NCBI RefSeq assembly: GCF_028748185.1
Contig: NZ_CP118164.1
Span: forward strand, 3,162,001-3,226,000
Direction: 5' to 3'
DNA length: 64,000 bases
DNA from: Bremerella sp. P1
Lineage (GTDB): Bacteria; Planctomycetota; Planctomycetia; Pirellulales; Pirellulaceae
Below the pieces are notes generated by a model. It ran no database searches, was not told the origin of the DNA, and saw nothing but the letters and a program-made list of their open reading frames with translations. A program made the position numbers and the translations under genes. Numbering within the stretch: the first letter of the stretch is position 1; every line of letters starts with the position of its first letter. Below are positions 43,915 through 60,493 of the stretch, piece by piece.

Positions 43915-45258
43915 GTGCAGCGTACCCTGTTCCTCATTCCTGTTCCGGACGACCTGTTCGGCCTGCCGGTGGTAGGCTGGGGATGGTTGTTGATCTTATG
44001 GGGACTCATCGTCGCCGTGTGGATCTTCCTGCTTTCCAGGAAGCCGACCTTCACACAGGATCTGATGGGGCATCTGCCACTGTTTGCGGTGGTTGCGGCC
44101 GCAATCATCTTTGTGTTGCCGATGCTGCGCGTCACGGAAGGAGACCAAATCGGATTTCCTGTGCGCGGCTACGGGGTGCTCCTCGTGTTTGCAATTGTCT
44201 CCGCGGTAGGCTTAGCTGCGTATCGCGCGCAGCGAATGGGGCTGAACCCGGAAGTTATCTTCTCCCTGGCGATGGTCATGATCATCTGTGGTGTCGTTGG
44301 GGCACGTGTGTTCTTCGTCATTCAATACTGGGAGAACTTCTATCATCCCGGTGATTGGCAAGCAACGGCTCAAGAGATATTCAAAGTGACCGAAGGGGGA
44401 ATCGTCGTTTACGGTTCGCTCATCGGCGCCGCAGTCGCCTTTGCCGGATTCAGTTACTTGCGTCAAATCAATGCATTGGCTCTGGCGGACTTGATTGCAC
44501 CGAGTTTGATGATCGGGATGTTTTTCGGTCGACTCGGCTGCTTTATGAACGGCTGCTGCTACGGTGGTCTTTGCACGCTTCCCCTGGCGGTTCAGTTTCC
44601 CCAGGGCATCCCACCCCAGTACACACCGCCCTATGTTCGGCACATGGAGAATGGGGCGTTCTACGGGTTGCTGTTTGTCGAGAACGAAGAAGGCCAGGTC
44701 ATTGTCGCGAATGTGCTGCCGAACTCAGCGGCCAGCAAGACCGGCAAGTTTGAAGTGGGAGACGTGGTTGAAAGCATCGACGGCTACCCGCTCAAGAGCA
44801 AAGAGTACAAGCCGTTGGATCTGTTGAAGAATCGGTTCCTGGCTTCGTGGATGAAGGAAGGGCCGCGCAAGGGAACGCTCGAAATCACCTTGGCTGGCAA
44901 AGGGGACGTGGCGCTGCATGTTGATGAGATGCCCAAGGCCTCGTTGCCCATCCATCCCACGCAGATCTATAGCAGCCTGAACGGGCTCATTCTGTGCCTG
45001 TTGGTATTGGCTTACTATCCATTTCGTAAGGCAGATGGAGAAGTGATGGCGCTGACCCTGGGACTCTATTCGATTGCCCGTTTTCTGTTGGAAGTGATCC
45101 GGACCGATGAGTACGCCATTGGCGGAACAGGGCTGACGATTTCCCAGAATGTGAGCGTGGTCATCTTTGTATTGGCGATCGGCCTATTCATTTTTGCCCG
45201 CCTCCGAAAGCAGCCACTTGCCTGGCCGCGAGAAGCGTCGCTTAATGTAGGATCTTGA
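43915..45258 (+). CDS. lgt: Prolipoprotein diacylglyceryl transferase with PDZ-like insert
   Basis: Membrane enzyme that transfers diacylglycerol to lipobox cysteines. The signature GRLGCFMNGCCYGG is at 205-218 and the late motif LPIHPTQIYSSLNGL at 344-358; both belong to Lgt. At 447 residues it is far longer than E. coli Lgt (291). The surplus is an N-terminal part with two extra helices (about 20-40, 53-72) and a segment between the two signatures (about 245-340) reading VIVANVLPNSAASKTGKF, VGDVVESIDGYPL and a beta-strand tail, which is PDZ-like. Start is a GTG at 43915. Confidence 0.93.
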   Translation: MQRTLFLIPVPDDLFGLPVVGWGWLLILWGLIVAVWIFLLSRKPTFTQDLMGHLPLFAVVAAAIIFVLPMLRVTEGDQIGFPVRGYGVLLVFAIVSAVGLAAYRAQRMGLNPEVIFSLAMVMIICGVVGARVFFVIQYWENFYHPGDWQATAQEIFKVTEGGIVVYGSLIGAAVAFAGFSYLRQINALALADLIAPSLMIGMFFGRLGCFMNGCCYGGLCTLPLAVQFPQGIPPQYTPPYVRHMENGAFYGLLFVENEEGQVIVANVLPNSAASKTGKFEVGDVVESIDGYPLKSKEYKPLDLLKNRFLASWMKEGPRKGTLEITLAGKGDVALHVDEMPKASLPIHPTQIYSSLNGLILCLLVLAYYPFRKADGEVMALTLGLYSIARFLLEVIRTDEYAIGGTGLTISQNVSVVIFVLAIGLFIFARLRKQPLAWPREASLNVGS

Positions 45259-49420: not shown

Positions 49421-50512
49421 TTGGCTTTTCTTTATACGTCCCTGGAAAGACTGTGTGTGGCTTCGACACGTCCATCATACCGTTTGGAAGATATTCTCGC
49501 TCTCAACGCCGAGATAATATCTTTATCGCGTGTCGAATTGCCATTAGATCCTCATCTGGGACGTATGAGCAAGGATCTGACAGGGCGTCTTCGCCGATTG
49601 GGCGAGGATCTCTCGGAGCGTCTCTCCAAAGGCCAGTCGCTAGAGGACGCGATTGATGAATTGGGGACCGGTTTTCCGCCCATGTATCGTGCGGTCGTGA
49701 CAGCTGGGATTCGCAGCGGACGATTGACTTCGGCGTTGGAGGATATCGCCGCAACCGCCAGACGTGTCCAAAAGATGCGAATCTCTTACCTCACGGCTTC
49801 CGTCTATCCGGCGATTCTGTTGATCCTGGCAGGCATCTTTGGGATGACCGTTGGGATGGAGCAGCTACGGATGATGCGCGAGGTGTGTATCGATTCATTC
49901 CTCCCCGAGACATCTTTCATTGTCCGCTCGATTGATTTCTTCGCCGCTCTGAAACCACTTTTCGCGGCGTTGATTCCCTTGGGGGGATTGATGTTGTTCT
50001 GCATCGCACTGCTTCAGGTCTGGCCGTCATTTCTCTTCTTGGGAGATGGCTTGGTGACTTGGCTGCTTCCTGGGGCGAAGAAAGCCGCTCGAAATTGTCA
50101 GTGGGCGATGGTATTCGACTTGATGGCATTGTTGATTCGTCATCATTGTCCGCTTCCTGAAGCAGTTCGATTGGCGACCGAAGCGACTTGCAATCGTCGT
50201 ATGACGGCGAGTGGTCGCCAGTGGGCAGAGCGTATTGAAATGGGTGACCTGAAAACAGCACCACCCGAATTGAATCCACTGAGTAAGTGGCTTTTGACAT
50301 CGCAGCTCGAGCCAGATGCTCTAGCAGATAGCCTGGCTCTCACCGGCGAGCGTTACTATGCCAAGGCTCGCAGGCAGAGCCTGTGGATTCAAAACCAGCT
50401 TCCCATTTATGCCACATTGATGATTGGCGGCTTTGTCGTTGTTCTTTATGCGTTGATGCTTTTTATTCCCTGGATTGGGATTTTGCGTCACGTGTTAGTC
50501 CTTCCCGCTTAG
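49421..50512 (+). CDS. Type II secretion/pilus platform protein GspF/PilC (first of three)
   Basis: A 363-residue inner-membrane platform protein. It has the GspF two-repeat layout: first repeat about 25-130 (LGTGFPPMYRAVVTAGIRSG and the helix YLTASVYPAILLILAGIFGM), second about 225-355 (MVFDLMALLIRHHCPLPEAV and the final helix YATLMIGGFVVVLYALMLFI). The start is probably TTG at 49421 with GAGG upstream. It is the first of three consecutive GspF-type genes, 24 bases before the next. A platform protein normally meets the assembly ATPase, which is not encoded in this window. Confidence 0.85.
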   Translation: MAFLYTSLERLCVASTRPSYRLEDILALNAEIISLSRVELPLDPHLGRMSKDLTGRLRRLGEDLSERLSKGQSLEDAIDELGTGFPPMYRAVVTAGIRSGRLTSALEDIAATARRVQKMRISYLTASVYPAILLILAGIFGMTVGMEQLRMMREVCIDSFLPETSFIVRSIDFFAALKPLFAALIPLGGLMLFCIALLQVWPSFLFLGDGLVTWLLPGAKKAARNCQWAMVFDLMALLIRHHCPLPEAVRLATEATCNRRMTASGRQWAERIEMGDLKTAPPELNPLSKWLLTSQLEPDALADSLALTGERYYAKARRQSLWIQNQLPIYATLMIGGFVVVLYALMLFIPWIGILRHVLVLPA

Positions 50513-50536
50513 CCCCGTTGTTTCCGCGTTTCGTTC

Positions 50537-51685
50537 ATGCAGCCACCCTTCGGTTCTTCCAATCATGATTCCGGGTTAGATCACCCGCTGGAAACCAGCG
50601 CGGAGACGGTGGAAGATTCGAACGTAGAGTCGGAAATTAAGCCAGGCACCATCTCACTCAACGCGGACGAATCGGCTGAACTTCTTCGCTGCATCGGCGA
50701 GTTGTCGAAAACTGGTATGCCGTTGGACGAAGGGCTAGAAGCCTTTGCCGAGGAGGTCTCTCAGCGGAAGCTTAAGCAAGCTTTCCGGCAGTTAGCGAAA
50801 GAGATTCGCGCCGGTGGAAACCCATTGGTCGACCATGACCTCAGTTTCGTGCGACTCCCCAAGTACCATCAGAGCGTCTTGGTGGCCGGCATTCAGTCGC
50901 ATCGACTTGGCGAGACGCTTTACGAGTTACTAGAAGAAGAGAACTGGCGGAAAGAGTATTGGCGTGATCTTTGGGCCGCGCTTTCGTATCCCATTCTGTT
51001 AGCCGCCGTTACGCTGCTGGTCGTTGACCTTCTCAACGTGTTCATCATGCCGATGATTCAAACGCAGTTCCTCTCCATCTACGAAGACTTTGAACTCGAT
51101 TTGTCATTTGATCCAGAGATCTTCCGGGCTCCGACGATTTCGTGGACCAGTTTCTTTCTGTTAGGTGGCGTCGGGATCTTCCTGATCCCTGCATTCCTGA
51201 CGCCTGCCCAGACCGCGTTGTTAAGACGTAGTGTGCCGGTAGTTGGCAAGATTTTTTGGTGGTACGAATCGCTTGACTTAATCATCAAGCTTCGACTGTT
51301 GGTCGCGCAGAACATTCCGACCCCGACCGCATTGCGTCTGTTGGAAGACGCGGTTGCCAGTCGTCGCTACGCGGAACTGGTGCCCGTCTGGGCCGAGCAA
51401 ATGGAGCAAGGTAAGCGGCTGGGAGAAGTCTGGCAGGTTTCGTCCGATATTCCTTCTTCGATTCTTCCCTTGATACGTTGGGGAGAGTCCAACAATTCAC
51501 TTTCAGAGGCATTGGAGAGCGCCGAGCGACTTTTGAAAGAAAGACTTGCCCTCCGGCGAGAATTAATTCGCAAGATTGGGCCGCCGGTGATCACTATTCT
51601 TGTGTTGGCGGCTTTGTTTTGGGCGGCGGTTCGACTCGTCGTATTGGTATCTCCTTTGATTGACTTGATTCAAGCATTGACCTGA
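50537..51685 (+). CDS. Type II secretion/pilus platform protein GspF/PilC (second of three)
   Basis: A 382-residue platform protein. The cytoplasmic first repeat (about 35-135) has LRCIGELSKTGMPLDEGLEA and YHQSVLVAGIQSHRLGETLY; helices lie near 147-172, 208-232 and 355-378. A second repeat of the same kind (about 245-345) follows, with LRLLVAQNIPTPTALRLLED and the late SSILPLIRWGESNNSLSEAL. The N-terminal tail of about 40 residues is acidic and lacks similarity to GspF. Its stop is four bases from the next gene's ATG. Confidence 0.85.
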   Translation: MQPPFGSSNHDSGLDHPLETSAETVEDSNVESEIKPGTISLNADESAELLRCIGELSKTGMPLDEGLEAFAEEVSQRKLKQAFRQLAKEIRAGGNPLVDHDLSFVRLPKYHQSVLVAGIQSHRLGETLYELLEEENWRKEYWRDLWAALSYPILLAAVTLLVVDLLNVFIMPMIQTQFLSIYEDFELDLSFDPEIFRAPTISWTSFFLLGGVGIFLIPAFLTPAQTALLRRSVPVVGKIFWWYESLDLIIKLRLLVAQNIPTPTALRLLEDAVASRRYAELVPVWAEQMEQGKRLGEVWQVSSDIPSSILPLIRWGESNNSLSEALESAERLLKERLALRRELIRKIGPPVITILVLAALFWAAVRLVVLVSPLIDLIQALT

Positions 51686-51689
51686 GATC

Positions 51690-52982
51690 ATGGATCTTCT
51701 TTACCACTTACAGAATCTCTGGATGGCCGTCCTCTTGGGCGTCGTGCTGCTCGTTCTGTCGAACCAGTGGGACAGCACAACCCACGAAGAGTCATCCGTT
51801 CTGCGTCGTTCGCTGCGGCTGACGGCTTGGATGATGATTTGTATTGGCGGTGTCGGTTGGTGGATCGGTGTTTCAGGTTTTGTCGCTGTCGTTCTGATTC
51901 CGGTTGTTTGTTTTGTTCTCTTCGGCATTGGTATGCAGCGTTACCGTGTCATGGAGAATCGTAGCCTGGTTTCGATTGTGATTGCCGGAATGGAAAAAGG
52001 GATTCCACCGGTTGCCAGCGCTGTTGCGTATCGGCAAGAAGCGACCGGGCTCCAGGAACGTAAGGCCGATCGGTTCGCCAAGGCGATTGGGGCAGGCATG
52101 TCCCTAGTGGATGCAGCCCGTATTGCTCGCGTATTTCTTCCGGCAGAAACGGTCATGATGCTCGAGTTAGGACGGACCATGGGAAGTGTCGACGCGATCA
52201 ATAAACATGCCAAAGGATTTGTTCGCGACGATACGACCAACTACGGCAATCTCGACCTGTTCCTCGGTGGACTGATTACGGTCGTGATGGTTGGCTTCTT
52301 TCAATTGGCCTTGCTGACGTTTACCGAAATCAAGATTAAGCCTGTGTTGGCGATGATCATCGATGATTTCGATTTAGGCGCCAGCGGGTTTCCGGCGCTG
52401 TGGGCTTGGAGTGAATGGTCGTCGGATATCATTATTTGGTGTTTGTATGTCATTATCCCCATTGCCTTTTTGCTGTTTGTGCTAATGGTGATGGTGCAAT
52501 GTGGCGTGTTCAGCGAGCTTCCATGGGGCCTGCGCTGGGTTCACGGTCCCCTGAACGAGTGCCGGTTTTTGAATGTGTTGTCGGTGGTCGTTGCTGCTGA
52601 TTTGCCAGTGCAAAGTGCCTTGGAAGTCGTGCAAGCGAGGTTTCCCGCCGGACGCATTCGCAAGGTAGCTCGACATGTTTGCCGACAGCAACAGGCCGGT
52701 GCAGACTGGATTGAATTGCTTCGTAAGGAAGGGATTTTGAATCGCGGTGAAGCGGCTTTGGCCAGTTCAGCACAAGATGCCGGCAACTTGGCATGGGCGC
52801 TCAAAGAGATATCGATTGGCAAGCGTCGGCGTCATTTGCAACGCATGGCACCAGCTATGAAAATAGCGTTACCGATTCTCGTCTTGCTGGCCGCACTGCC
52901 GGTATTGTTTGCCGCGATTGGGATTTTTCTTCCCATCATTAATCTGGTGACTAACTTGTCCATTTACTCGCCGGTCAACTAA
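51690..52982 (+). CDS. Type II secretion/pilus platform protein GspF/PilC (third of three)
   Basis: A 430-residue platform protein that starts with two hydrophobic helices (about 8-25 and 45-75) ahead of the first GspF repeat (about 90-180, SIVIAGMEKGIPPVASAVAY and LPAETVMMLELGRTMGSVDA). Further helices lie near 190-210 and 250-275, then the second repeat (about 295-370, NVLSVVVAADLPVQSALEVV). The last helix IALPILVLLAALPVLFAAIG is followed by a short tail. The two extra N-terminal helices distinguish it from the other two. Two bases separate it from the first pilin gene. Confidence 0.85.
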   Translation: MDLLYHLQNLWMAVLLGVVLLVLSNQWDSTTHEESSVLRRSLRLTAWMMICIGGVGWWIGVSGFVAVVLIPVVCFVLFGIGMQRYRVMENRSLVSIVIAGMEKGIPPVASAVAYRQEATGLQERKADRFAKAIGAGMSLVDAARIARVFLPAETVMMLELGRTMGSVDAINKHAKGFVRDDTTNYGNLDLFLGGLITVVMVGFFQLALLTFTEIKIKPVLAMIIDDFDLGASGFPALWAWSEWSSDIIIWCLYVIIPIAFLLFVLMVMVQCGVFSELPWGLRWVHGPLNECRFLNVLSVVVAADLPVQSALEVVQARFPAGRIRKVARHVCRQQQAGADWIELLRKEGILNRGEAALASSAQDAGNLAWALKEISIGKRRRHLQRMAPAMKIALPILVLLAALPVLFAAIGIFLPIINLVTNLSIYSPVN

Positions 52983-53871: not shown

Positions 53872-54280
53872 AACAGCAGCGATCATGCAGGCCTCGCGGT
53901 TTTGTCAGCGTGTTTGTTTTAGTGGCCATGGTAGGAGCCGTGCTAATCGCCACCGCCTCGCTTGTGCGAGTCACGTCGCAGTCACGACATTCGGCCAGGA
54001 ACGCGAGTCAGCCTCAAGTGGATCTATTGTTTGAGTCGGCGGTCGACTTGGCAAAGTCCCGGTTAGAATCTCAGCCGCAATATGACGGTGAAACATGGCA
54101 ACTGAACAAAGCGGACAGCGGACTGCGACAGTCGGCCAAGGTCGTCATTGAAATCGAATCAAATACCGATCCGAATCTTCGCAATGTGGAAATCGTCGTC
54201 GAGCTTGGTGACGAGCCCGCAGCGACCATTCGCGATCGAAGAACATGGACCATTTCACTCCCAGCGTCGGAGCAAAACTA

Positions 54281-54281
<1 letters not shown>
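53868..54281 (+). CDS. PilX/GspK-like minor pilin
   Basis: A 137-residue protein starting [11 protein letters not shown] and then [20 protein letters not shown], a pilin-like leader and helix without the usual glutamate at position five, as in PilX and GspK tip proteins. The remainder is hydrophilic and short. Overlaps are four bases upstream and one base (TAATG) with the next gene. Position in the set supports a tip or minor pilin role. Confidence 0.7.
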
Positions 54282-55339
<1,058 letters not shown>

Positions 55340-55351
55340 ACGGACGCACGC

Positions 55352-55798
55352 ATGTTAAAGGGTCAATCCTTTCCACTGATCTTTCTGATGCTGCTGGTCG
55401 CGTTCTCGGCGATTCTGGCTCGTATCGCCATGCCGATCGTGCAATCATTTCAAACGCACGACGTCTATGGTTCGGCGGTTGCCACCGAGCAATGGATTAC
55501 CTGGAGCGCGGCGATGGTCCTGACCGGTGCCGTGGTTGGTGTCTTGATTGGTTGGGTTCGAGAGTATTTTTGGCCTGGGGCATTCGTCGGTTTCATTCTC
55601 GGAAGTGTGATTGGCGCAGTTTGCACACCGTTCCTCGCAGTGCCTGCGGCACTCACGGCGTTATGCGACTTGGCATGGATCTTTATCTCGTTGATTTTGC
55701 TGACCTTCGGGACCATACTAATTGAACGCCGCAACAGTAGACCTCAAGATGGTGAGCAGTACGTAAAGACGCTGAAAGAGAATACCGATCAATTGTGA
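55352..55798 (+). CDS. Small membrane protein of unknown function
   Basis: A 148-residue protein with four hydrophobic helices (about 7-30, 47-66, 72-96 and 102-126), the last containing LAWIFISLILLTFGTILIER, and a charged C-terminal tail. The start is 12 bases after the DUF1559 stop, which suggests it is the last gene of the pilus operon. I see no family motif. An accessory membrane role in pilus assembly is possible but unproven. Confidence 0.7.
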   Translation: MLKGQSFPLIFLMLLVAFSAILARIAMPIVQSFQTHDVYGSAVATEQWITWSAAMVLTGAVVGVLIGWVREYFWPGAFVGFILGSVIGAVCTPFLAVPAALTALCDLAWIFISLILLTFGTILIERRNSRPQDGEQYVKTLKENTDQL

Positions 55799-55848: not shown

Positions 55849-56286
55849 ATGGTCAGCAATATCAGTCGCGTTCTCTTGGTCGAAGACAATCCGGCCCATG
55901 CGAAACTGATGATGAGGACACTCAGCGAGTTCAGTCAGTCGCTCGATGTCGATCACGTTTCCGATGGTGAAGCTGCTCTTGCTTATCTATTTCATACCGG
56001 CAAGTTCGAACACAAGACCCAACTGCCGCACTTGGTATTACTTGATTTAAGAATCCCAAAATTTGACGGTCTAACAGTACTGGGCCGAATTAAGCAAGAT
56101 CCAGCGCTGAAACAGATCCCAGTCGTCATTCTCACCACTTCGGACGCGGATTCCGATGTCCGAGAAGCGACGGATAGGTTTGCTAACAGCTATTTGGTAA
56201 AACCAATTGAATACTTGCAGTTCGTCAATTTGATGCGTTCTGTTGGAGCCTATTGGACAGAATTGAATCATAGGGCTTCTAGTTGA
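55849..56286 (+). CDS. Single-domain response regulator (Rcp1-like)
   Basis: A 145-residue receiver domain. Acidic pocket VEDNPAHAKLMMRTLSE near the start, the phospho-acceptor in VLLDLRIPKFDGL (Asp at about 65), VVILTTSDAD with the conserved threonine and YLVKPIEY with the lysine. The extended loop before the aspartate is typical of Rcp1-type regulators used with phytochrome-like kinases. No output domain is present. It lies 75 bases upstream of the sensor kinase on the same strand, so it is likely part of that phosphorelay. Confidence 0.93.
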   Translation: MVSNISRVLLVEDNPAHAKLMMRTLSEFSQSLDVDHVSDGEAALAYLFHTGKFEHKTQLPHLVLLDLRIPKFDGLTVLGRIKQDPALKQIPVVILTTSDADSDVREATDRFANSYLVKPIEYLQFVNLMRSVGAYWTELNHRASS

Positions 56287-56361
56287 AAGCACGTTCAGCG
56301 TCCATCGCCTTCCACGAATTCGTCAGGCTGGGCACATCCTCAAATTTTCTGCGAAGAAGCC

Positions 56362-58287
56362 ATGGTCGGTAAGTTGCGTTTGATGATTGTTGAAGACGAT
56401 CCCGCACATGCGCGTCTCATCATGCGTGGCTTTCGTTCTGAGATAGATGACTTTGAGCTCTCGACGCATTTCTCACTGAAAGACGCACGCGAGAGCATCG
56501 AGCAAACCGTGCCCGACCTGGTAATTGTCGACCTCTCGTTACCCGATGGTTTGGGTGCCGACCTGATCGAGCCGCAAGGGAAAGTCGGCCGCTATCCGGT
56601 CATGATCATCACGAGCCAGGGTGATGAGCAAACGGCCGTCGATGTATTGAAACGTGGTGCCATCGATTATGTCGTCAAGTCGGAATCTGGCTTTGCAGAG
56701 CTACCCCGTCTGGCCAAGCGGTCGGTTCGGGAGTGGCGACTGCAGCGCGAAAAGATGGAAGCGGAGGAAGCGCTGCGCAATAGCGAGCAGCGTTATCGCG
56801 CGCTGATCGATCACTCTCCGACATCCATCGTGGTCGCATGCGAAGGGAAAATCGTTCTCGCCAATGGAATGGCTCAAAAGTGTCTGCGAGCTAGTTCGAC
56901 TTCCGAAGTGGTCGGGAAGTCAATCGAAACACTTAACATTCCAGACAACGCAGCGTTGGTGGGAACGAATGGCCAAGAGGCTGATGCGCGTTCGCCAACG
57001 CAGTTGAACGAATACGTCTTGCGGCGCGTTGACGGGACGCTTCTCGATGTCGAGTTGATGACGACGTCGGTCGATTATTATGGTCAAAATGCGACGCAAT
57101 ACGTATTTCAAGACATTACCCTGCGTAAAGCGGCCGAAACGGAAATGCGCATTCGTGACCGCGCGATTGCTTCGGCCGGGGACGGGATCTTTATTGTTCA
57201 ACTCTCGCAGGGCGAGATTAAGGTCGTCGACTGCAACCAGGCATTTCTTGAGATCGTTGGTTGCGATCGTCAGCGAGTAGAGCAAGTTGGGCTGAGTGTG
57301 ATTCGATGTGATTCGCGATACGATGCCCGTTTGCGTCTGATTGTCGCTGGAATTCATTCGCGACAGCCGGCACGAGATACCATCCGGATCCATGCCGAAA
57401 AGGACGATTTTCGCTGGGTCGAGATCTCGATTTCACCTGTTCAGGTGTCAGAGAGTCAGAATTCACACGTGGTTGGGGTCGTTCATGACATCACCGAGAA
57501 AGTCAATGCCGAGGAAGAAATCCGACGACATAACGCGGAGCTCGCTCACTTCTTACGACTGACCGCGATGGGTGAGCTTGTCGCGGGGCTCGCGCATGAG
57601 GTGAATCAACCTCTTTACGCAATTTCTAACTATGCAGGGACGTGCGAGAATCTCCTCAAGTCGCATGAAGGGGTTGATAAACCGAGCCTTCAGCAGTGTG
57701 TTTCACGAATTGGCCAACAGGCACGACGTGCCGCCGAGATCATTCGCCGGCTGCGAAATTTCGTCAGCCGTACCGCACCCAAAGCAGAATCGGCCGAAAT
57801 CAAAGATCTGCTGAGCGATTCAATCGCACTCTTGACGCCGCTGTTGGAAGAAAAGGCGATCGAGATTTCTCTCGAGATAGATCCTTCGACGCCGAGTGTA
57901 TTTGTCGATAGAATTCAAATAGAACAAGTCTTGATCAACTTAATTACCAATGCGATCGATGCGATTGACGACAACAATGCCGAACGCATTATTGAAATTA
58001 AGGCAAGCCTTGTGGAAACGAAACAAGAGCCGATGGTTCAGGTTTCGGTACGCGACTACGGTGTAGGACTCCCTCCTGGCTTTGACGTGTTCGAGGCTTT
58101 CCAATCGACCAAGGAAAAGGGAATGGGAATGGGCCTATCCATTAGCCGCACAATTGTCGAGTCGCATGGGGGCAAGATTTGGGTTGAATCCGGCTCTGCG
58201 CGCGGTACGATCTTTTTCTTCACGCTTCCAACTTCCCTACAACAGGTAACTGGCTATGCCGACGAATCCGACCGTGTTTGTCATTGA
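56362..58287 (+). CDS. REC-PAS-PAS histidine kinase
   Basis: A 641-residue soluble hybrid sensor. The receiver (about 5-120) has the acidic pair EDD and aspartate in IVDLSLPDGL (Asp57); the usual KP motif reads VVKSE. Two PAS domains follow (about 145-255 and 265-378), each ending in a DIT motif. The HisKA helix has MGELVAGLAHEVNQPLYAIS with His412, and the ATPase domain shows LINLITNAIDA, YGVGLPPG and GMGMGLSISRTIVESHGG. There is no membrane segment, so it senses a cytoplasmic cue. It overlaps the FixJ-like gene by 32 bases. Confidence 0.93.
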   Translation: MVGKLRLMIVEDDPAHARLIMRGFRSEIDDFELSTHFSLKDARESIEQTVPDLVIVDLSLPDGLGADLIEPQGKVGRYPVMIITSQGDEQTAVDVLKRGAIDYVVKSESGFAELPRLAKRSVREWRLQREKMEAEEALRNSEQRYRALIDHSPTSIVVACEGKIVLANGMAQKCLRASSTSEVVGKSIETLNIPDNAALVGTNGQEADARSPTQLNEYVLRRVDGTLLDVELMTTSVDYYGQNATQYVFQDITLRKAAETEMRIRDRAIASAGDGIFIVQLSQGEIKVVDCNQAFLEIVGCDRQRVEQVGLSVIRCDSRYDARLRLIVAGIHSRQPARDTIRIHAEKDDFRWVEISISPVQVSESQNSHVVGVVHDITEKVNAEEEIRRHNAELAHFLRLTAMGELVAGLAHEVNQPLYAISNYAGTCENLLKSHEGVDKPSLQQCVSRIGQQARRAAEIIRRLRNFVSRTAPKAESAEIKDLLSDSIALLTPLLEEKAIEISLEIDPSTPSVFVDRIQIEQVLINLITNAIDAIDDNNAERIIEIKASLVETKQEPMVQVSVRDYGVGLPPGFDVFEAFQSTKEKGMGMGLSISRTIVESHGGKIWVESGSARGTIFFFTLPTSLQQVTGYADESDRVCH

Positions 58288-58918
58288 CGATGACCCAGCG
58301 GCACGTGAATCGATTGGGATGCTCATTCGTTCCCTCGGCCTTCAAGTCGAAACGTATGCATCCGCTGAACAATATCTGCAATCGTTCGATGCCAGCCGTC
58401 CCGGTTGCGTCGTAACCGATATGCGAATGTTGGGGCTCAGTGGATTAGAGCTGCAAGAACAATTGGTCGAGATGGGGGAACGTATTCCGGTTATCCTCAT
58501 TTCGGCGCATGCCAATATGCAAATTGCTGTAAAAGCAATGCGTAACGGTGCGATTACGTTCCTGGAAAAGCCTTGCCAGCAGCAGGAAATCATCGACGCA
58601 GTCAATGAAGCAATTGCCTTGGATGCCCGTTGGCGACAGGAATCGAAGGAATCGGCCGAAGCGAAAGAGAACTATGAAAAGCTGAACGCCGGCGAACGCG
58701 ATGTGATGAAGCTAATGATGATCGGCAAAGCCAACAAGGTGATCGCCAATCGTCTGGACGTAAGCCTCCGAACGGTCGAGGCGCGTCGACACAACGTCTT
58801 CAAGAAGATGAACGTCGACAACATTCCTGATCTAACGCGGCTGGCGATGAAGATTGACGAGCTTCGCGCCGAGATCGAGATGAACACCGATGCAGGTGAC
58901 GAAACGGAAGAAGAATAA
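58256..58918 (+). CDS. FixJ/NarL-type response regulator with LuxR-type helix-turn-helix
   Basis: A 220-residue transcription factor. The receiver (about 1-120) has FVIDDDPAARESIGML, the phospho-acceptor in CVVTDMRMLGLSGLEL and the lysine in FLEKPCQQ. A helical linker leads to the LuxR/GerE output domain (about 142-200): LNAGERDVMKLMMIGKANK and VSLRTVEARRHNVFKKM. FixJ-like order and the 32-base overlap with the kinase gene indicate that it is the main output of that kinase. Confidence 0.94.
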   Translation: MPTNPTVFVIDDDPAARESIGMLIRSLGLQVETYASAEQYLQSFDASRPGCVVTDMRMLGLSGLELQEQLVEMGERIPVILISAHANMQIAVKAMRNGAITFLEKPCQQQEIIDAVNEAIALDARWRQESKESAEAKENYEKLNAGERDVMKLMMIGKANKVIANRLDVSLRTVEARRHNVFKKMNVDNIPDLTRLAMKIDELRAEIEMNTDAGDETEEE

Positions 58919-58939
58919 TCGTTGTTCTGAATTCCTGCT

Positions 58940-59212
58940 TCAGCCTTTTGGCTGCCCAAGTATCAGTGCTCCGACGCTCAGCGTGACGATGATTGGCAGG
59001 AGAGTCATCGGATACAGCGGGGGTTTCGGCTCCTGATAGAGATAGTCTTTTTCTACGAGCCAACTCTCGGCTCGTAGCCATCCCTGGTCAGTTCGCCGCC
59101 AGACGACCGTGACTTCCCTCTGGGAAGCGGGGCCAGGAGTTGGCAATACCATGGACGTTGCAATCCAGATTGCTCCGAGCACCAGAAAAGTCCAGAGAAG
59201 TATGCGAATCAC
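58940..59212 (-). CDS. Small membrane protein of unknown function
   Basis: A 90-residue protein with hydrophobic helices at the two ends: about 3-23 (ILLWTFLVLGAIWIATSMVL) and about 66-86 (YPMTLLPIIVTLSVGALILG). The middle (about 30-60) is hydrophilic, with VTVVWRRTDQGWLRAESWLV. It converges with the FixJ-like gene, stops 22 bases apart. No family is recognised. Confidence 0.6.
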   Translation of the reverse strand: MIRILLWTFLVLGAIWIATSMVLPTPGPASQREVTVVWRRTDQGWLRAESWLVEKDYLYQEPKPPLYPMTLLPIIVTLSVGALILGQPKG

Positions 59213-59575
59213 GGGAAGTTCGTTTCTGCAAAATCATGAAAAGCGAGAAGTCGTCCTTTTCATGTTTTGCAGGGAATGTGCCACCACCGCCTGAATCGCT
59301 TCTGGTTTGCCCTAATTCCTTTTCTAGAAGGTGTTTGCGGCAGTTGTAGGGCATCCTAGGGCGATCATTTTGTGGCGTTCTTGCCTCATGGATTCATGCC
59401 CAGATGTTGCTTTATGGAAACGCGATGCGTCCGCGCTACGGGCGGATTTCCGTGAAAGCTTAATCTTCGGGATTCGAAAGTTGCCCCAAGGTGTGGTGTG
59501 ACCTATTTATTTCACGTGCGGTCTGCGTTCAAAACAGAGCGACCGGGGGAACTTTTCGCTTCCAGAATTGACGGG
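59213..59575. other. Intergenic region upstream of the HDOD gene
   Basis: About 360 bases between divergent genes with no convincing gene. The frame of the HDOD gene is open back to a GTG at 59498, so part of this region could be coding if that start is used. A short GC hairpin (TCCGC/GCGGA type) lies near 59430-59450. Confidence 0.4.
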
Positions 59576-60493
59576 ATGAGAATCAAGATGACTCAAAATA
59601 CTTCTCTGAAAGACCTGCTGGCCGGAGCCCAATTGCCAGCTTTGCCGCAAAGTGCCATTCGTTTGTTGGAACTCGCTCAAGATCCCGAAAACGGCCCTGC
59701 CGAATTTGCGGTACCGATCGAGGCAGATCCTGGGCTCACCGGACAGGTATTGCGATTCGTAAACTCGTCCTATTTCGGTTTCTCACGAGAAATTTCCAAC
59801 GTCAAACTTGCTATTACGCTCGTTGGAATCCGCACGATTAAGAATTTTGCACTTTGGAGTGCCGTCTTTAGCCTGATGCCCAACCCGAAGAGTGGGCCAT
59901 TTGATCTTAAGAGCTTGTGGCAAGATTCTCTCCGCCGCGGTTTGTTTGCCCGAGCTGTTGGCAAGCATTTGGGTTTGAAAGATGCGGAAGATCTGTTCGC
60001 CGCCGCCCTGCTCCAAGACATGGCCGTGCCGCTGCTGGCGAAAGAACTCGGCGACAAGTACCGCACACTGATTGAAGGCCGAAGCGAAGGCCAGGCACGT
60101 ATTTCTGATCTGGAACGAGAAACCTTCGGTTGGACGCATGCCGAAGCAGGTGGTGTGATCGCACGCGGTTGGAGCTTGCCAGAAGCATTCGCCGAGTTGA
60201 TTGAATCGCACCTCGATCTCGAAGATTACCTGGCCTCGCCAGAGAAAGACCCAGGCCGCGTGGCCGTCGCTCTTTCGGCATTGTTGCCGGCAACCGCCGA
60301 CGAATCGTGGAAAGAACTGGAACGTTTCCAGTCGGCCTACGAGAAAGTCATGAAGGGTGGTCCGACCATCGCCGAGACCATGGAAAAGGTCGATGCCGAC
60401 TATGAAGAGTTCGCTCCGGTTCTGAAGCTGGCCAACCCGTCGGTCACGCTGGTTGAACTGTACAATCAAAGCCTGCAAAAGGCCGCGACCTAA
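59576..60493 (+). CDS. HDOD-domain signalling protein
   Basis: A 305-residue soluble protein with an HDOD fold, a metal-lost relative of HD phosphohydrolases often found in two-component and c-di-GMP networks. The core includes LPALPQSAIRLLELAQDPEN, IEADPGLTGQVLRFVNSSYF, ISNVKLAITLVGIRTIKNFA and LLQDMAVPLLAKELGD; WTHAEAGGVIARGWSLPEAF follows. Starts at 59498 (GTG), 59576 or 59588 (ATG) are all possible; no site is decisive. It stands alone, with a bidirectional terminator after it. Confidence 0.88.
   Translation: MRIKMTQNTSLKDLLAGAQLPALPQSAIRLLELAQDPENGPAEFAVPIEADPGLTGQVLRFVNSSYFGFSREISNVKLAITLVGIRTIKNFALWSAVFSLMPNPKSGPFDLKSLWQDSLRRGLFARAVGKHLGLKDAEDLFAAALLQDMAVPLLAKELGDKYRTLIEGRSEGQARISDLERETFGWTHAEAGGVIARGWSLPEAFAELIESHLDLEDYLASPEKDPGRVAVALSALLPATADESWKELERFQSAYEKVMKGGPTIAETMEKVDADYEEFAPVLKLANPSVTLVELYNQSLQKAAT

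Follow-up and report, generated by a model that had tools for sequence, protein, structure and literature searches.

In the models published for type IV filament machines, three copies of the platform protein stand on a hexameric ATPase (PMC10191384; PMC12019362 for Tad), with six cytoplasmic platform domains that each meet one ATPase subunit and a three-jawed chuck closing round the pilin, as these two papers describe it; a homotrimer model of the canonical platform is also given in PMC10790770. The number of platform proteins in the motor, and whether platforms conduct ions, is the open question that we address here with a stretch of 64,000 nucleotides from Bremerella sp. P1 (contig NZ_CP118164.1, positions 3,162,001 to 3,226,000; the whole stretch is called the window below), in which three different full-length platform genes, F1, F2, and F3, follow one another in one operon. 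This triplet system is real, conserved, and, as far as we have searched, undescribed, and appears to be a type IV filament machine whose platform is made up of several proteins. Our main reading, to which we give a probability of about one half, is that F1, F2, and F3 would, by analogy with the published models, be three different subunits of a single inner-membrane platform, arranged as a 1:1:1 heterotrimer.

The three platform genes and their conservation

F1 (49421..50512, + strand, 363 amino acids), F2 (50537..51685, + strand, 382 amino acids), and F3 (51690..52982, + strand, 430 amino acids) are consecutive open reading frames of a single operon, separated by 24 and 4 bases. A preliminary description made from the letters alone had taken them for three different two-repeat platform proteins lying in one operon within 30 bases of each other, and Pfam, profile comparison, and gene spacing all agree with it. 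The T2SSF scores are 83.8 bits for F1, 97 for F2, and 37.2 for F3 (cut-off 25.2), with two domains matched in each of F1 and F2; in F3 the cut-off is reached individually by the C-terminal domain and not by the first repeat, which is too diverged for Pfam on its own. When compared profile to profile (hhalign) with nine canonical GspF proteins, the F3 family aligned over 335 columns and both repeats (probability 100), and the F1 family over 343 columns, also with both repeats (probability 99.9). All three have the pair of T2SSF repeats and the three core membrane helices that characterize GspF/PilC proteins. F1 is devoid of the N-domain. A GspF-like N-domain opens F2 in 10 of 19 alignment rows, judged by eye, and is missing from F2 in the genus of the window. 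It is uncertain where F1 starts, the TTG at 49421 having been set mechanically; relatives start at a codon that corresponds to 49436, which is ACG here.

The third protein had been credited with two extra helices, a fair description in view of an AlphaFold2 model computed from an 18-row alignment (mean predicted local distance difference test score 75.2, predicted template modelling score 0.63). It predicts two six-helix bundles preceded by additional N-terminal helices at residues 2–30 and 37–62 and a lengthened helix at 64–102. At least one hydrophobic segment precedes the core of F3 in 49 of the 64 triplet loci (defined below) and none in the other 15, the higher counts being perhaps inflated by reading frame starts set too early.

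In comparisons with three closely related species of the genus, the ratio of nonsynonymous to synonymous substitution rates (dN/dS) ranges from 0.029 to 0.069 for each of the three genes; with a fourth species that is less closely related it is 0.077 for F1 and 0.133 for F2, and undefined through saturation for F3. F1, F2, and F3 are under strong purifying selection, and because these values are low we rule out that any of them is decayed. The two possibilities raised against it in the preliminary description, decay of two of the copies and a triplet peculiar to one strain, are thus both set aside, the second by the distribution of the genes.

In a search with F3 and in the neighborhoods collected, this set of three genes was found in many genera. 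Among the 149 genomes of the family, searched with wide profiles and strict cut-offs, F1 was detected in 58 and F3 in 61 (the six genomes of the window's genus included), figures that are lower bounds because diverged sets such as locus L085 score below the cut-offs. Both occur together in 51 of the 149, and in 44 family genomes (51 pairs) they share order and strand at a distance of 1.5–4 kb. Nor is the triplet confined to one family of the class Planctomycetia. Among 294 genomes sampled from the phylum, 18 of the 20 that belong to family f3 of this class have F1 (E 4e-85 or better), and a genome of another family of the order (G302) has F1 at 209 bits with F2 and F3 adjoining (L187). The next F1 match, at 208 bits, comes from outside the class (G293) and is the first protein of a cluster with two platform genes (L179, see below). 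Most further F1 matches in this sample score much as canonical GspF does. One of the 17 loci listed as matches of the ATPase search, L174 from a Thermoguttaceae metagenome-assembled genome, holds the triplet.

We examined 118 loci, which are no random sample because they were picked by their F3 or ATPase matches, near kin included. In every one of the 64 that have all three genes on one strand, the order is F1-F2-F3. A tree of 61 rows places F1 and F3 in one clade each, and F2 as well except for a single long branch (L081); a tree of 67 rows recovers one clade for each of the three, with support of 100/97 or better. Judging from their sequences, F1, F2, and F3 are old, separate clades, and both trees rule out a recent duplication as the origin of the triplet. 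In five of eight examined genomes with two triplets, F1, F2, and F3 share their nearest other locus. In G019, assembled as a single contig, the genes are dispersed (F1 at 7.01, F2 at 6.80, F3 at 3.31 Mb, and the ATPase Et, see below, at 5.26 Mb) yet all are retained. Finally, F2 and F3 are naturally fused in G053, in one frame of 800 amino acids (L076:9165-11567, - strand), a hint that the two proteins may work side by side.

A partner ATPase and the genes downstream

In six loci (L064, L065, L075, L078, L079, and L080) a GspE-like ATPase stands just upstream of F1. It is 50–54% identical to an orphan ATPase of the window's own genome (G000, C1:2315217-2316425) and at most 38.4% identical to any other ATPase encoded there. 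We call this short GspE-like ATPase Et; its counterpart in G000 lies 0.9 Mb from the window, which itself shows neither an ATPase nor a secretin gene, so that the ATPase supposed earlier to be encoded elsewhere has been located. Among the 64 triplet loci, 17 have Et immediately upstream of F1, and in 17 the ATPase, platform, and pilin-like genes all occur together, the ATPase of the window being elsewhere. Et consists of a T2SSE domain without the MshEN (N1E) domain that a canonical ATPase (L147) carries; its best NCBIfam match is GspE, below the cut-off, and its TadA match reaches 23.8 bits.

With 440 bits as the cut-off for the presence of Et, the 149 family genomes divide into 39 with F1 and Et, 19 with F1 only, eight with Et only, and 83 with neither, a co-occurrence for which Fisher's test gives p 5.5e-14, uncorrected for kinship. 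The same 18 of 20 genomes of family f3 hold F1 and Et (≥440 bits), and the other two have neither. Two or more copies of F1 occur in nine family genomes, and a second Et at 440 bits in none. Outside the class, the only sampled genome above this value is G199, with an Et-like ATPase of 479 bits (G199:C17:6734-7975, L180), after which a platform gene begins and the contig ends.

Pilin-like genes follow the triplet. A gene for a DUF1559 protein was found downstream in 55 of the 57 triplet loci with 3.8 kb of downstream sequence, the remaining seven of the 64 having too little to be counted. By a rough motif test, at least one pilin-like reading frame follows in 53 of the 57, at least two in 40, and at least three in 20, and 1 of 56 upstream control stretches has any. 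In the window, P1 (52985..53407, + strand) is a short pilin-like protein with an N-terminal hydrophobic segment and an N_methyl match of 13.1 bits, below the cut-off, in the position that pilin-like genes occupy in relatives. P2 (53404..53871, + strand), also short and pilin-like, has an N_methyl match of 20.5 bits, just below the cut-off, and a weak match to ComGE, and P3 (53868..54281, + strand) is a short GspK/PilX-like protein with a weak GspK match (E 0.00078, far below the cut-off) that is conserved in an alignment of nine relatives, the window included. Next comes the DUF1559 pilin-like protein (54245..55339, + strand; PF07596 162.5 bits, N_methyl 30 bits, TIGR04294 43.3 bits), with a prepilin motif and an H-X9-DG end. 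The conserved run ends with a small protein (55352..55798, + strand) that has four hydrophobic segments and is 22–67% identical to its counterparts in five relatives (L056, L075, L076, L078, and L080). The operon has no secretin, GspL/GspM, or other scaffold genes, the search for scaffold genes having been confined to it.

The genome, a single contig of 6,955,728 bases, has 22 T2SSF matches, 14 T2SSE matches (13 above the cut-off), and seven secretins, each of these secretins being more than 1 Mb away from both the window and Et. It also encodes F0, an orphan two-repeat platform-like protein (G000:C1:4894169-4895227; L150:8170-9231) with no ATPase or pilin genes adjoining, which has matches in 143 of the 149 family genomes. 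At G000:C1:2227319-2229873 (L050, L051), a PilT-like ATPase adjoins a frame of 659 amino acids with predicted membrane segments, a T2SSE match, and an apparently altered P-loop motif. In the window, the pilin operon is followed on the same strand (55849-60493) by genes for a response regulator, a PAS histidine kinase, a LuxR-type regulator, and an HDOD protein, and a prolipoprotein diacylglyceryl transferase is encoded at 43915-45258, with PDZ matches falling within its own span (residues 245-296).

A proposed platform of three proteins, and the alternatives

The preliminary description had proposed a mixed platform, and this is still the best-fitting reading of the gene order, the separate clades, the ATPase, and the joint retention; physical contact between the proteins is a suggestion drawn from sequence. 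At that level, the conservation of the triplet, its order and age, its co-retention, the partner ATPase, and the pilin genes are established, and that F1, F2, F3, and Et would make up one co-required machine is well supported. We propose a heterotrimer because canonical platforms are modelled as homotrimers on a hexameric ATPase: with three different full-length platform proteins kept and one ATPase, the simplest arrangement would have a different protein for each jaw. From the published homotrimer models we also infer the 1:1:1 stoichiometry, the platform's contact with the ATPase, and filament assembly. Et would form a hexamer beneath the membrane, on which F1, F2, and F3 would sit as a 1:1:1 heterotrimer, their six non-identical cytoplasmic domains meeting the six Et subunits. 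ATP turnover would then turn or lift the three-jawed hub, which would feed the pilin-like proteins of the operon (three short ones and the DUF1559 pilin) into a filament. If this were true, the hub would form a ring whose three parts differ from one another. The filament may be a fiber on the cell surface or may act in secretion or uptake. For planctomycetes, a paper describes crater-like structures bearing 12 nm pili-like fibers that bind dextran, and an uptake system that it calls still to be characterized (PMC5394234); a link of these fibers and of uptake with the triplet operon would be a guess.

Loci with two platform genes outside the class give some idea of how the triplet could have arisen. 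In six loci (L163, from Limisphaerales of the Verrucomicrobiota, L179, L182, L183, L184, and L186), two platform genes were detected after the ATPase. In the 67-row tree their second protein joins F3 (92/91) and their first protein joins F1, weakly (82/75); several of these proteins are long branches. The ATPases of these loci resemble Et only a little more than they resemble canonical GspE, and that of L163 no more at all. A history from one to two to three platform genes would fit these sequences as far as F1 and F3 are concerned. A bolder version, which we hold as tentative and with less confidence than the heterotrimer as such, is an obligate 1:1:1 heterotrimer derived from an older two-gene (2:1) platform and this in turn from a homotrimer, with unequal jaws, a lost channel glutamate, and a stoichiometry written in the gene order.

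Several observations weigh against the single three-protein platform. The two-platform clusters show that a machine of this kind does not need three platform proteins. For canonical platforms the trimer itself was derived by modelling, crosslinking, and simulation, and dimers were favored in earlier work, according to PMC10790770. The triplet is split between contigs in G104 and G058. The 19 family genomes with F1 and no Et at 440 bits, five with Et and neither F1 nor F3 at the cut-offs, and two loci (L192 and L193) in which Et adjoins F0 are exceptions that weaken the idea of an exclusive set of the four proteins.

The alternative that survives best, although we consider it unlikely, is that the three proteins form separate homo-oligomeric platforms that share one ATPase and one operon, each serving different pilins or conditions. 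Each of them keeps a full two-repeat body and conserved features of its own, there are several pilin-like genes in the operon, and the canonical systems of the same genome manage with single platform genes. However, the three are retained as a set in a fixed order, and all of them even in G019 where they are dispersed. The genomes with two or more copies of F1 still have no second Et above the cut-off, and one would expect platforms that can replace one another to disappear singly, although partial sets were not systematically searched for below the cut-offs.

Slightly less probable still is a division of labor in which one or two of the proteins act as the platform and the others (F3 or F1) are scaffolds or regulators that replace GspL/M or PilM/N/O. 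The residues of the channel are of interest here. In PulF, Y168-P169 and E370-P371 lie at the constriction of the homotrimer channel, as described in PMC10790770, and both pairs, Y-P in the first transmembrane segment (TMS1) and E-P in the third (TMS3), are kept in 9/9 canonical GspF rows. F1 has the TMS1 proline in 29 of 33 rows and the TMS3 glutamate in 0/33; its TMS3 proline is offset by one alignment column, and the residue before it is glutamate in none of the 33 either. The TMS3 glutamate is found in 8 of 33 rows of F2 and in 1 of 30 of F3, in which the TMS1 proline is missing from all 30, and none of the three proteins of the window has this glutamate. The Y-P and E-P pairs expected of the proposed platform ion channel are therefore not those of F1, F2, and F3. 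The missing proline of F3 and the missing glutamate of F1 would suit a scaffold role, as would the operon without scaffold genes, an ATPase without MshEN, and the extra hydrophobic segments that most F3 proteins have at their N-terminus. On the other side, both cytoplasmic repeats are kept in all three proteins, F3 does without the extra segment in 15 of the 64 loci, and the Com pilus functions without scaffold proteins, according to PMC10191384.

That Et mainly serves F0, its link with the triplet being secondary, seems improbable: F0 adjoins Et in L192 and L193 and, by coordinates, also in the genomes G086 and G148, which are all from a single genus (g37), but F0 is nearly universal in the family while Et reaches 440 bits in 47 genomes, Et co-occurs with F1 and lies directly upstream of it in the 17 triplet loci given above, and in G000 F0 (4.89 Mb) is far from Et (2.32 Mb).

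Relation to described type IV filament systems

A mixed platform had been put forward as a feature not familiar from described systems, and we found no description of a three-platform system in the open-access full-text literature, of which the best matches were taken where more existed. That a triplet occurs naturally and is conserved argues for three subunits on independent, genetic grounds, and such a system would let each jaw be mutated alone. A genome that we infer to be that of Planctopirus limnophila (G426), for which genetic tools exist, carries an ATPase-F1-F2-F3 cluster, its triplet being at 4.38 Mb (L155), apart from a canonical cluster at 0.51 Mb. The latter (L189, G426:C1:500000-519500), with two PilB-like, one PilT-like, and one canonical GspF gene and then pilin-like genes, is probably the secretion-related locus Plim_0410-0401 reported in the P. 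limnophila essential-gene study (PMC10632474). We considered Plim_0410-0401 as a candidate for the triplet and rejected it, what that study reports of it fitting the canonical cluster.

With a GspE/PilB-like ATPase, platform, and pilin-like genes occurring together, the system belongs to the type IV filament superfamily. It has much in common with the Com pilus (ComGA-ComGG), namely a short ATPase without MshEN, platform and pilin genes in one operon, and no secretin or scaffold alongside. However, Com has one platform gene (ComGB) where there are three here, and the triplet goes with a DUF1559 pilin and a diderm host; none of the NCBIfam Com models reaches its cut-off. Type II secretion (PulE, PulF, and pseudopilins) shares the GspE-like ATPase, the GspF-like platform, and GspK-like and other pseudopilin-like genes, but it is recognized by a secretin and GspL/GspM with the operon and by MshEN on the ATPase, whereas here we find three platform genes, no GspL/M in the operon, and no secretin within 1 Mb. 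The Tad (T4c) pilus also has more than one platform gene per machine (TadB/TadC, CpaG/CpaH), and its platform has been proposed to be heteromeric with threefold symmetry, as presented in PMC12019362. Nevertheless, TadB and TadC are single-repeat halves that arose by fission, as stated in PMC6668835, and are served by a TadA-type ATPase, whereas F1, F2, and F3 are full-length two-repeat paralogs. The canonical PilB-PilT-PilB-PilC cluster (near 4.98 Mb in G000, L146; L189 in G426) is a member of the same superfamily in the same cells, but its platform is a single protein, its ATPases are long, and it includes a PilT-like gene. Lastly, the two-platform clusters (L163, L179, L182-L184, and L186) have the same arrangement, in which a GspE-like ATPase precedes at least two full-length platform genes, and differ in that two such genes, rather than three, were detected.

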